Assembly: GCF_002087085.1 (NCBI RefSeq)
Contig: NZ_MWQY01000017.1
Span: forward strand, 1 to 64,000
Direction: 5' to 3'
DNA from: Marispirochaeta aestuarii
Lineage (GTDB): Bacteria > Spirochaetota > Spirochaetia > JC444 > Marispirochaetaceae
Length of the DNA stretch: 64,000 bases
This document shows positions 1-4,416 of this stretch, one piece after another. A model generated the notes under the pieces. The model made no database searches. It saw only the letters and a program-made list of their open reading frames with translations, and was not told the origin of the DNA. The translations under genes and the position numbers were made by a program. Every line of letters starts with the position of its first letter. Within the stretch, counting starts at the first letter, position 1.

Positions 1-19
1 GTCTGATACTGATTTAATG

Positions 20-170
20 CAGGGTCCTCGCTGGTTTGTGAGAAATGCGGGCTAACCAGCACTATATCACCCATTTCGCTCGCATTAGCTTCATTTCAAC
101 TGTTCAGTTCTTGGAACCAGTAGCACAGACCATGACAATAGCCACGTGTGCTCCAATTGCTGGTTATATG
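20..170 (-). repeat. Imperfect palindromic repeat, copy B (attC-like)
   Basis: This lies just 3' of the methyltransferase gene. The hexamer CTGGTT or its complement AACCAG occurs four times in nested order: 31-36, 54-59, 115-120 and 160-165. TAACCAGCA (53-61) pairs perfectly with TGCTGGTTA (158-166). An inner hairpin pairs AACCAG (115-120) with CTGGTT (160-165) and AGCACA with TGTGCT, separated by an asymmetric internal loop. The block at 149-167 matches copy A at 2658-2676 in 17 of 19 positions, and 123-142 matches 2632-2651 in 15 of 20. A folded AAC...GTT hairpin with asymmetric spacers is the architecture of integron attC sites, but the GTTRRRY box is not exact, so attC is a hypothesis. 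Confidence 0.6.
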
Positions 171-175
171 CAAAT

Positions 176-1315
176 TTACTTTCTTTCAACTAAATACAAA
201 TACTCTTTTATGTGTATCGTTCTATTTCTTAGATTCCTGCTACCACGGAATGTATTGTATTTCGTCTCAATCACATCCACTTTGCCAAATTTTTTTAACA
301 TGTGAACCATGTCCTTCTTGCTAATAAAACCTTCAGAGTTGAAAGACACAATTAAGTATTTGGCCTTAATTTTTTCCAATAAATTATTGAACGTTTCTGT
401 GGCATATGCTCTTTTGTTATATAATGATCTTTTCCAATCAGTTGGTATACCAGATACTTTGCTAATATCATTTGGTTTAATATAATCAACAATAAGATTA
501 AGCATAAAATAATTTGAACCATATGGGTGTTGATTATATGGAGGATCTAAATAGGCAATATCGACTTCTTCCAAGCAATCAGAAATTATATTTGAGTCAC
601 CACAATGTATTTGATATTCACATTCATAGTTGCTAAAAACTGGGAATGGTAAATGAATATCGCCTAATATTCTAAGAAGAGCGTCAGATCCATTTCCTCC
701 AAATTGTCCGACGCCTGTTTTAGAATTTTTGTAGAACCCTTTAAATACACCAGAAGTATTCGCATGAATAGAGGCTTCAGATAACAATGGCGCTAAGAAA
801 TATGGTCTATATTTTTTCGGAACACTTTCAATATAGTGTCTTGCAGTATCTATATACTTTGCATTTCTATTAGTATAAAACACCCTTTCACCATTCTTAA
901 CATTTTCATCATCTTTAGGAGCATAAAGTTCTGAAATAAATCCATTAATAAGTTTTTCATTTTCTAGTTTAAAAACAATTTCATTATAGTAGTCTTTTAG
1001 AACTTTATCATCAATCTCGCTATGATTCGTAAGGTAACATGTATTAATTATTTCAGAGTATCTTTCAATATCATTTACAATAATCTTCTCAGCATTCTTC
1101 TTAAAATATCTAGCAACTATTCCTGATCCAGAAAAAACATCATAAAATGATAACTTATTCTTATCAAGGCGTGTTTTTATTATATTTATGCCTTCATTAA
1201 TAAATGATAATAATGAACGCTTATTCCCTATGTAAGTAATAATTTGTTCATTGAGATAAGCTTCATTCTCTTCTCTTGCTTCCTCAAAAGCATAAATTAT
1301 ATTTTCAGTTTTCAT
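176..1315 (-). CDS. D12-class N6-adenine DNA methyltransferase
   Basis: This protein should transfer a methyl group from SAM to the N6 of adenine in a short DNA target, protecting the host from a partner nuclease. The 379-residue protein has YIGNKRSL near residue 28, the SAM-binding motif FYDVFSGSG near 57-65, and the catalytic DPPY at 257-260. That order is the alpha-class (Dam/D12) layout, and the length is somewhat above Dam itself. It begins 11 bp after the HNH endonuclease stop, so the two are probably co-transcribed as a type II restriction-modification pair. The gene is clearly AT-richer than the core genome to the right, consistent with transfer. No strong Shine-Dalgarno is visible, so coupling to the upstream gene is likely. 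The target sequence cannot be read from the protein. Confidence 0.85.
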   Translation of the reverse strand: MKTENIIYAFEEAREENEAYLNEQIITYIGNKRSLLSFINEGINIIKTRLDKNKLSFYDVFSGSGIVARYFKKNAEKIIVNDIERYSEIINTCYLTNHSEIDDKVLKDYYNEIVFKLENEKLINGFISELYAPKDDENVKNGERVFYTNRNAKYIDTARHYIESVPKKYRPYFLAPLLSEASIHANTSGVFKGFYKNSKTGVGQFGGNGSDALLRILGDIHLPFPVFSNYECEYQIHCGDSNIISDCLEEVDIAYLDPPYNQHPYGSNYFMLNLIVDYIKPNDISKVSGIPTDWKRSLYNKRAYATETFNNLLEKIKAKYLIVSFNSEGFISKKDMVHMLKKFGKVDVIETKYNTFRGSRNLRNRTIHIKEYLYLVERK

Positions 1316-1326
1316 TGTATCGCCGT

Positions 1327-2496
1327 TTATCCTTTGAAAATATTATCCCTGTGGTGTTTTAAGTATGATCTCATCCTATCGTTAACAACTAATCCAATTC
1401 GGCTATTGCTATTAGTAATTATATCTTTAATTATTGATTTTGATAAGACAGGGTCACTTGATAGGAGAATATTCCCATTATCATTTATAGCTATATATCC
1501 TTTATCAAATAAAGCATCATGCGCTGAACACAATGTGAGAACATTATCGAGATCTAATCGTCCTTCGCCGGTCCTCCATGGTTTTATATGGCTACAAATC
1601 AATAAGTTAGTTTCATCTACTTCACAAAGTAGACAACGGGAACTATCACGCTCTAGTGCAAGATTTCTAAGGCTACTCGTATTAAGTCTTGAATTTGTAA
1701 TTACTTTTATAGTCGTATCTCTACCTTCAAGGTTGTACTGTTCGATATTAATTTGACTGATTATTTCAGTTAAAGACTGTGCCTGAATGTCTATTTGCCT
1801 AAAAATATCATTCTCTATAACAAGATAAATAAAATCTGAATCATTATCACCAAGAATGTTTCTATCAAAAAAATACTCATACTCTAAAATCACTTCATTT
1901 ACATGGTTAAGATGTTCATTGTAAATTGGGAAAATGATATTCGGAACATATTCTATAAAATTTGGAGTATTTACCAACTCATAAATGACTCGATTATTTA
2001 TATTATCAATTAGAATTCTTGGGTATGTATAATATTGGTCGCTATTTGATATAAATAGTTTTTTATTCCCGAACAAACGATGTGTGGATTCTTGCAGATG
2101 TCTCTTCGTACTAATATTTTTAAATACTCTGAATGCACTTGCTTCCGCCGTTTTATTTTTTATCAGCATATCAATTTCATTAAAAATATTTTCATTAGCG
2201 CACTCAACAGAAACGTTCCCACCATCAAGACTAAATGATATGTTACCAGATAAGCATTCATTATTCAGTTCTTTACCACGAAGTAAGAGTATTCTGTTTT
2301 TATCAGAATCATTTTGGATATCATACCCAAAGTAAGACAAATTCCCATCAAATCCTTGTTTGTTTGGAATATCGAATGGTGATTCACTGACTATGTATTC
2401 AGTAACATCAGAACGTTTGAAATATACCTCTCTTTTGCTACAACAATAGTAAATTAATTTTATAATGACTGTATCTTTTTCATACGTTTTTAACAC
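1327..2496 (-). CDS. HNH endonuclease, probable restriction enzyme
   Basis: This is a 389-residue protein with a C-terminal HNH nuclease domain (about 274-340). Visible are the zinc-type CLLC pair near 288-291, CSHIKPW with the catalytic-region His near 303, RLDLDN, and LCSAHDALFDKG with His near 326. This spacing is typical of HNH restriction endonucleases of the SHIKPW type. The first 270 residues match nothing I recognise and probably carry DNA recognition. The GTG start at 2496 is supported by GGAG about 8 nt upstream. It precedes the adenine methyltransferase by 11 bp, which makes a nuclease-methylase pair the simplest reading. A role as a solitary anti-phage nuclease cannot be excluded. 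Confidence 0.8.
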   Translation of the reverse strand: MLKTYEKDTVIIKLIYYCCSKREVYFKRSDVTEYIVSESPFDIPNKQGFDGNLSYFGYDIQNDSDKNRILLLRGKELNNECLSGNISFSLDGGNVSVECANENIFNEIDMLIKNKTAEASAFRVFKNISTKRHLQESTHRLFGNKKLFISNSDQYYTYPRILIDNINNRVIYELVNTPNFIEYVPNIIFPIYNEHLNHVNEVILEYEYFFDRNILGDNDSDFIYLVIENDIFRQIDIQAQSLTEIISQINIEQYNLEGRDTTIKVITNSRLNTSSLRNLALERDSSRCLLCEVDETNLLICSHIKPWRTGEGRLDLDNVLTLCSAHDALFDKGYIAINDNGNILLSSDPVLSKSIIKDIITNSNSRIGLVVNDRMRSYLKHHRDNIFKG

Positions 2497-2519
2497 ATAT
2501 TACTCCATTGTAACACCCA

Positions 2520-2689
2520 GTTGAGCTGCAAACCGTTAAGCTGGCGCAGTTTGTGCTGTATTGTTACTTCATTATACAACGATTTCAGCACGGAATCACT
2601 TCAATTCTATCTCTCATATCTAACCTTAACTGCACAAACTGTGACAGTAGGTTTGACTGCTCCAACTGCAGGTTATGTTTGCACTTAAC
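2520..2689 (-). repeat. Imperfect palindromic repeat, copy A (attC-like)
   Basis: This fills the gap between the HEPN gene and the HNH gene. The ends form an imperfect terminal inverted repeat, GTTGAGCTGCAAAC (2520-2533) against GTTTGCACTTAAC (2677-2689). CAGTTTGTGC (2547-2556) is the perfect complement of GCACAAACTG (2632-2641). A core hairpin pairs TTAAC-TGCA (2626-2634) with TGCA-G-GTTA (2667-2675), leaving one bulged base, a feature also seen in folded attC sites. It shares its right half with copy B at 20-170. No integrase gene is in the window, so the link to an integron is unproven. Confidence 0.6.
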
Positions 2690-2739: not shown

Positions 2740-3711
2740 TTATTTTTTCCAACCTGGTTCTATAATTTTTACCTTCGTGTTTTCTATCTTCATGTTCCTT
2801 TCCATTTTATTCGTAATTGACATAATTAATCCAATAACATTTTCATATGTTTCTAATAAATACTCTTGCGTAAAACAATCATTATAATATCGACTTGTAT
2901 CCCCTTTCTTAAATCTTTCTATATCCAATTCAATAGCATCAACAGGATCAATATCATTTACATACATCAATAATTTTCTTATGTCATGGGTCTTTGGATA
3001 TTGCATCTTTTGTGAAATATAGATTTTTAAACATTTTTCGACTGCCATGTGTAACTCATAAAATGCCAAAGACAATGCCATACTGTTTTTATTTTCTACA
3101 ATCAAGCTTGCTGATTTCTTTAAATGAACCATAATACTATCTTTAAGATCTTTATTCTCATTTTCTATTTTTGCAGTTAATAAATTTGCTCGTATTGTCC
3201 TAATTTCTCTGATATATTTTCTAAGCTTTTTAAGTAATTTTTGATTTTCTGATTCAGAAAGATTTACTATGTTTGGCGGATCTTGAATATATTCGATTAT
3301 ATTCTCACCTCTTTGAACTGAAGAAGGGTAAATGATCCAATAGCTGTTATCCTTATTATGTCGTGTTAATATATATGGAATCCTTACAAGAAAGAAATCA
3401 TTATATATTCTAACAACTGCATGTCCAAAATCTGATGGACGCTCCTTCAACAACCTTTTTCCATATCTCCTACGGTACCATTCAAGTACATTTTGATAGA
3501 TATACTTAAACCATATTGAGTTCTCAAAGTCTTGCTTATCTGATATGACACTATCACCTTTCTTAATTGTTATATAGTTTTCTATTAATGCATAAGTAGC
3601 ATAGTACGGTCTCACAGACATTGGCTTTGATTCTTTAAAGTAATCATCAATATCATTCAATGTATAACTTATTATTTTTATAAAGTCATCTTCTATTATC
3701 TCTTCCTTCAT
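2740..3711 (-). CDS. HEPN-domain protein
   Basis: The 323-residue protein has two parts. The N-terminal half (to about 190) is rich in Tyr, Lys and Ile and unrecognised. The C-terminal part has the helical pattern of HEPN domains: AFYELHMAVEKCLKIYI near residue 215-231 followed by PKTHDIRKLL near 238-247. HEPN proteins are often toxins or RNases in defence loci, usually through an R-x4-6-H motif. I do not see that motif clearly here, so nuclease activity is uncertain. The gene is AT-rich and sits upstream of the HNH/methyltransferase pair, separated by palindromic repeat A. It may be an independent cassette or a third part of the same defence locus. Confidence 0.6.
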   Translation of the reverse strand: MKEEIIEDDFIKIISYTLNDIDDYFKESKPMSVRPYYATYALIENYITIKKGDSVISDKQDFENSIWFKYIYQNVLEWYRRRYGKRLLKERPSDFGHAVVRIYNDFFLVRIPYILTRHNKDNSYWIIYPSSVQRGENIIEYIQDPPNIVNLSESENQKLLKKLRKYIREIRTIRANLLTAKIENENKDLKDSIMVHLKKSASLIVENKNSMALSLAFYELHMAVEKCLKIYISQKMQYPKTHDIRKLLMYVNDIDPVDAIELDIERFKKGDTSRYYNDCFTQEYLLETYENVIGLIMSITNKMERNMKIENTKVKIIEPGWKK

Positions 3712-4404
3712 CCTACTTCACAACCACTGACCATGCAATTTTCTTAAATCTTAATCTTTCTACCCCTTGTGTCAACATAACATATTATAATCACCGCTTT
3801 TCCATACAACTAACGTGAGAGAACAATCTTATGGCAAAACTCTTGAACGGCCACCTTCGCTTCACCAGTAAGGCATGAAACACTCATCCTGTCCAAAAGA
3901 TAAAGACCCATAATATGATATTTAGCACTACCGTACCTGTATCAACCGTTGTCGGTATGCTGCGCGCTAAGAGAAGTTGGGCCGGGGTATTTTATTGAAG
4001 ATCATACAAAAGTGGCAGCTGCAACAATAGTTATCTTTACATTTTAAAACGAAATCCCAATTCGTCAACCTCTAATTCTATTAAAATGTAAATTCCTTCA
4101 ATGTTTTGTACTATCTATGACGTTGTGCATAGGTAGTATTATTCAGCGGGTGGTTTCCTATACGAAAAAGGTATAATGGCCCCAGGCGATTCAAACAAGT
4201 CTCTCTTATTTTTATGATTTTTATACTCATACAAGGTCAAAGAATCATACCGTTATTATTCAAAAAGGGTCCCGCCTTCATGATCCTTGTGATAATCCCC
4301 AATGAAGATTAAAGGACAACAGGGAAAGAAGTACATAAAAAGAGACCTCATCAAAAAATCCGGTTGACATCTGACCTAATCCATATAAAATATCTAAAAT
4401 TTAA
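3712..4404. other. Long AT-rich intergenic region with two hairpins
   Basis: I see no gene here. Two strong inverted repeats stand out. TTTACATTTTAA (4036-4047) pairs perfectly with TTAAAATGTAAA (4081-4092), with a smaller ACGAA/TTCGT stem inside its loop. TACTATCTATG (4109-4119) pairs with CATAGGTAGTA (4128-4138) with one G-T pair and an 8-nt loop. There is no recognisable copy of the palindromic repeats found at 20-170 and 2520-2689. The region marks the border between the AT-rich tract and the core-like sequence to the right, so it may hold the edge of an inserted segment. Confidence 0.5.
4364..4391 (+). promoter_or_regulatory. Candidate sigma-70 promoter of the degenerate kinase gene
   Basis: TTGACA at 4364-4369 is followed, after 16 nt, by TAAAAT at 4386-4391. 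The predicted transcript would begin near 4398, leaving a leader of about 19 nt before the ATG at 4417. Confidence 0.55.
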
Positions 4405-4416
4405 ATGGGGTTCATA

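Follow-up and report, generated by a model that had tools for sequence, protein, structure and literature searches.

The 64,000-nucleotide stretch analysed here (the window; the start of contig NZ_MWQY01000017.1 of Marispirochaeta aestuarii) very probably opens with the proximal end of a cassette array without an integrase gene (CALIN) that belongs to a chromosomal integron, and whose cassettes would be mobilisable in trans by an integron integrase (IntI) encoded on another contig. The original prediction had likened two repeats around a restriction-modification pair to the recombination sites of integron cassettes. That reading held: the same genome contains 12 complete attC sites with a covarying fold and an IntI, the cassettes share one orientation and differ in content between relatives, and an IS-like element truncates the distal site. 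It was incomplete in that the attI-like start of the window array had gone unseen.

Two cassettes at the end of the window contig

The genome (G000) is a 4.2-Mb draft in 78 contigs, of which the window contig is C17. The array and its surroundings comprise the following features.

1-53, no strand assigned: end of a multicopy IS-like element at the contig edge, with terminal repeat TTTGTGAGAAATGCGGGCTA; the first attC has lost its other arm to this element
54-167, minus strand: attC that belongs to the HNH-methylase cassette, truncated; its R'' box is ATAAC at 163-167, and the R'/L' arm is lost
about 54-2513, minus strand: cassette 2 (HNH and methylase), cut short distally by the IS-like element
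176-1315, minus strand: type II DNA adenine methyltransferase of cassette 2 (MethyltransfD12; Pfam PF02086, 4.8e-22; PADLOC MTase_II, 3.3e-125)
1327-2496, minus strand: HNH endonuclease gene of cassette 2 (Pfam HNH_2, 3.1e-10; PADLOC HNH, 2e-20, and REase_II, 1.3e-9)
2509-2679, minus strand: complete attC; R'' ATAAC at 2672-2676, R' GTTAC at 2510-2514, an extrahelical G in L'' and a variable terminal loop
2514-3780, minus strand: cassette 1 (HEPN gene at 2740-3711 and its attC), with G^TT at both ends in the junction sequences
3776-3801, minus strand: attI-like half site AAAAGCGGTGATTATAATATGTTATG, the head of the window array, with no intI beside it

The predicted order of gene and then attC on the minus strand applied to both cassette 1 (HEPN) and cassette 2 (HNH and methylase), and all cassette genes of the array lie on one strand, pointing away from intI. 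The HEPN gene matched Pfam PF05168 (1.3e-6). The HNH gene, which has a GTG start about 17 bases past the cassette junction, encodes the probable restriction partner of the methyltransferase; this restriction-modification function, like the other cassette functions, is predicted from domain matches. The cassette open reading frames have a GC content of 28-31%, compared with 53% for the window from position 4405 on. The HNH gene was absent from all 197 other genomes of the class that were searched, and a search of plasmids with the same query returned partial HNH-domain matches only.

None of the integrase matches in the genome fell on the window contig, and we therefore class its array as a CALIN. 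By definition a CALIN has at least two attC without a neighbouring intI; the window has the complete site at 2509-2679 and the truncated site at 54-167, and the contig ends at the array. As a counterpoint, the array reaches the contig end within a repeat, and array contigs in this draft assembly end in shared repeats, such that the window array could be continuous with the array that adjoins intI.

Truncation of the distal attC

The sequence similarity between the two repeats was exactly as claimed, with 17 of 19 identical positions between 149-167 and 2658-2676 and 15 of 20 between 123-142 and 2632-2651. The ungapped local score between the gaps at 20-170 and 2520-2689 was 21, against a maximum of 14 in shuffled sequences (n=200). 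The claim that each repeat folds as a nested palindrome was borne out for copy 2 (2509-2679), for which the single-stranded DNA fold had a z-score of -2.75 and no shuffled sequence folded equally well, but not for copy 1 alone (20-170), for which the z-score was -0.01 and 95 out of 200 shuffled sequences folded as well. The GCTAACCAGC taken as one end of the copy 1 palindrome was misassigned: it straddles the insertion junction, and the true left arm starts at about position 54.

Positions 1-55 exactly match the terminal 55 bases, at one end or the other, of three other contigs (C28, C18 and C3) and the sequences diverge beyond this 55-mer, which identifies the segment as the end of a multicopy IS-like element. 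Its 20-bp terminal repeat also occurs at the ends of C36, C29, C23 and C12. The remaining part of copy 1 (54-167) is 83% identical over 114 bp to a complete site on contig C8 (C8:196971-197144), and this intact homologue runs about 54 bases past the break in copy 1. Against covariance model R1, the truncated site scored 47.1 bits over model positions 1-130 and was then cut off. Copy 1 is thus an attC truncated by the end of an IS-like element, not an intact palindrome.

A genome-wide attC family with a covarying fold

We searched the genome with each of the two window gaps and then built a covariance model from the copies found. The complete site at 2509-2679 scored 165 bits (R1; E 2.4e-39). 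Altogether, there were 12 complete attC, distributed over C4 (n=3), C8 (n=6), C17 (n=1), C30 (n=1) and C46 (n=1), and partial sites lie at window positions 1-170 and at the termini of C8 and C46, with these five contigs carrying the family. The original prediction had proposed a genome-wide search for further copies and folding with an attC covariance model; the former yielded many copies between unrelated small genes (C4, C8, C30 and C46), and the model built from them finds arrays beside intI in two genomes of the same genus.

On the coding strand, each attC reads ATAAC, three nucleotides, CARTTG, an extra G and AGC, followed by an internal loop, a 6-bp stem, a further stem and the loop; the far arm is complementary and ends in GTTAT. 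The R'' and R' boxes are accordingly ATAAC and GTTAT, the 3-nt spacers are unpaired, and L'' contains a single extrahelical G. The 6-bp stem occurs in two covarying forms, CAAACC/GGTTTG and TGTGGC/GCCACA, and the variable loop is either long (site of about 171 nt) or short (site of about 101 nt). The structure comprises 35 pairs, and 96.9% of cells were paired across the 12 sites. Covariation was seen as double changes in 12 pairs (44 double-change cells), values that none of 500 shuffles reached, and sliding the partner by 1-3 columns reduced pairing to 22-37%.

The GTT crossover core and its complementary AAC were invariant in all 12 complete sites. The bases after GTT varied from junction to junction, as would be expected if the next cassette supplies those bases. 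The textbook attC consensus is GTTRRRY, although this is not an absolute requirement. As had been observed at the outset, the boxes do not match it exactly: the R' cores in this genome are GTTATRY or GTTACAA. The first attC of the same-genus genome G002 reads GTTAGGT, which fits GTTRRRY.

An integron integrase on another contig

The genome contains eight tyrosine-recombinase loci, among them one for an integron integrase, including its extra domain, at C4:2826-4070. The protein (414 aa) scored 403.7 bits against TIGR02249 (cut-off 265) over model positions 1-315, the full model, and its best solved relative was the IntI4 entry 2A3V (1.3e-72). Three attC adjoin this intI; a distance of 409 bases separates the nearest of them from the intI start codon, and the cassette genes are directed away from the integrase gene. 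The suggestion that an intI-like tyrosine recombinase would be found at the array end was therefore right in part: a full-length IntI heads one array, but that array is on C4, not on the window contig. By homology, attI lies beside intI, where the interval separating intI from the first cassette holds a signature, located at C4:2673-2697 and at G002 C1:1691487; a related form is present in the other same-genus genome, G001.

A 12-mer, GAACAATAGTTT, followed by ATTGTT, occurs at C4 2797-2808 in the intI promoter region, in several attC loops and in a few other intergenic places. It could be a LexA-type box or a small repeat; we did not adopt it as an SOS box because its other copies are not consistently located at known SOS genes.

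Cassette content in related genomes

An integrase scoring over the cut-off was found in 17 out of 60 related genomes of the class, including both G001 and G002. The covariance model detected 22-23 attC in G001 and about 40 in G002, with one attC run in G002 adjoining intI, and weaker members of the family occurred in other families of the class. On another G002 contig, attC were spread over more than 100 kb (C5:1174-109644), and no intI was found on this contig.

The cassettes at C4:1175-2679 recur in G002 at another array position with 91.6% identity, compared with 73.6% for intI and 82.4% for a neighbouring kinase gene. Together with the absence of the HNH gene from the other class genomes searched, these shared cassettes provide sequence evidence for cassette movement, as distinct from current activity. 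Gene content at the sites thus differed between relatives, and none of the outcomes that the original prediction had named as counting against it (only two copies genome-wide, copies inside genes, or unchanged gene content between strains) occurred.

An empty site between the kinase gene of the window and the C30 gene for a PgsA-like protein was considered and set aside. These genes are adjacent in G002, but the kinase has three paralogues there, and synteny links the downstream NUDIX gene to a different one of them; we therefore do not claim C17 and C30 as flanks of a single insertion.

attI-like half sites at the heads of arrays

No attC lies upstream of cassette 1. Instead, positions 3776-3801 read AAAAGCGGTGATTATAATAT^GTTATG, with zero mismatches to the signature between intI and the first cassette in C4 and G002 (19/19 specified positions). 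The same signature heads the C30 array (1723-1747), which adjoins a PgsA-like gene, and a second array in G002 (C1:1746992) with two attC. A weaker match (two mismatches) was located at G002 C1:1531524, where no attC was detected; it heads a single lipoprotein-like gene, after which come genes for a transposase and a tyrosine recombinase (C1 1531524-1534463), possibly an array start cut by a mobile element.

With a broader signature, zero-mismatch matches occurred only in C4, C17, C30, two G002 sites, genomes G040 and G045 (both adjacent to intI) and one G037 site, against a chance expectation of about 0.08 (170 Mb, 23 genomes). With the stricter signature, shuffled loci rarely came within four mismatches. 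In G037, an MNT/HEPN-like gene pair follows about 0.7 kb downstream of the exact match (C31:12092), and the model detected no attC there. The sequences upstream of the heads are unrelated beyond about 25-46 bp, and a tblastn search of these upstream regions for intI remnants gave nothing better than E 0.4. Insertion of the HEPN cassette at a random secondary site was considered and dropped after the match to the G002 attI region.

In the simplest reading, the site at 3776-3801 and its kin would be attI-like half sites that capture cassettes away from the integrase locus, or relocated short blocks headed by attI. Half sites of the form AAAAGNNGTGNNTANANTAT^GTTAT (about 25-45 bp), each heading an array at one of several intI-less loci, might then be served in trans by a single IntI, or attI-headed blocks might be mobilised by it; this generalisation is tentative.

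About equally tentative is an origin of the window array as a displaced piece of the main integron, either moved by rearrangement (IS-mediated or attC x attI) or joined to it through the contig ends, with the head marking an old break at attI. Several array contigs do end in shared repeats (IS-like ends in C17, C28, C18 and C3; attC 3' halves in C8 and C46), and IS elements abut or sit within arrays, such as an IS30 in C46 and transposase-like genes by the G002 array near C1:1747k. However, C17 and C30 both present array heads that carry attI-like motifs, border ordinary chromosomal genes and show no upstream trace of intI, and the divergence of the heads beyond 25-46 bp also argues against displacement. 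The IS30-family transposase gene of C46 (448-1296) is located beside an attC, and this 3.7-kb array contig also has VapBC-like genes. The attI-like head might alternatively be a promoter, TATAAT-like and upstream of the first cassette, that was kept for expression and is not a recombination half site. We consider this unlikely: the motif does contain TAxAAT, and a TTGACA-16-TAAGAT match begins just within cassette 1, but the conserved block extends precisely to the G^TT crossover and covers bases that a -10 box would not contain, related signatures adjoin intI in other families (G040 and G045), and no consistent -35 spacing was apparent by eye.

For the attC themselves, an assignment to REP or MITE elements, dispersed hairpin repeats that have no relation to integrons and lie between genes by chance, would account for sites that are repeated, palindromic and intergenic. 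It is nevertheless extremely improbable and already contradicted by the present results, given the paired L and R boxes with a conserved extrahelical base, the order of gene and then site on one strand, the clusters beside a TIGR02249 integrase in three genomes, and the exact G^TT junctions with changing neighbours.

Under the integron reading, two cassettes would have been inserted in one orientation, the HEPN gene first and the two-gene HNH nuclease/methylase unit second, and each has its attC behind it. The IntI on the other contig, located by an attI and three attC, would recognise the folded bottom strand of attC and recombine at G^TT, so that the cassettes could be excised and moved in trans. 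We infer this activity, as we do the origin of the head: the array may start at a 25-45-bp attI-like half site through capture by IntI away from its own attI, or as a relocated attI-headed block. An insertion of the IS-like element later interrupted the distal attC and has probably fixed the cassette boundary there.

Comparison with known systems

Like the sedentary chromosomal integrons of Vibrio, Xanthomonas and Treponema, this system combines an IntI of TIGR02249 with attC-bounded cassettes on one strand and content that varies between relatives. It differs from them in its attC, which have two forms, a long one of about 171 nt and a short one of about 101 nt, and an R-box core of GTTATRY. 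Moreover, intI here diverges from the cassettes, whereas in Treponema integrons it points toward attI (PMC3607928).

Dispersed CALINs occur together with a functional intI in Xanthomonas (PMC12444791). The window array resembles a CALIN in having two attC, no intI on its contig and an intI elsewhere in the genome; what sets the window and C30 arrays apart is that an attI-like half site, adjoining ordinary chromosomal genes, forms their start. In the integron literature consulted for comparison, we found no description of an attI-like-headed CALIN beside chromosomal genes. Delta-attI sites of class 1 and 2 mobile integrons are likewise short attI-derived half sites ending in GTT away from intI, but they mostly replace attC downstream of an open reading frame inside mobile integrons (PMC12901181), whereas the half sites here head chromosomal arrays. 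The attG secondary insertion sites, as far as PMC12444791 describes them in citing Loot et al. 2024, are broadly distributed and distinct from attC and attI; they too place cassettes in the chromosome outside attI, whereas the present sites agree with the local attI signature at 19/19 specified positions.

These results add a chromosomal integron, well supported and with an attC type of its own, to a lineage in which the integrase is patchy (the 17 of 60 class relatives over the cut-off). If the attI-like heads work, an integrase could capture cassettes at more than a single locus, and this would help to account for intI-less arrays being dispersed. The HEPN, restriction-modification and DUF262-type cassette genes look like phage defence genes. 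A further region that looks like a defence cassette is found at C30 129-1672, where DUF262-like and small HEPN-like genes (families judged by eye) lie by the attC at 35-135 and the attI-like head.
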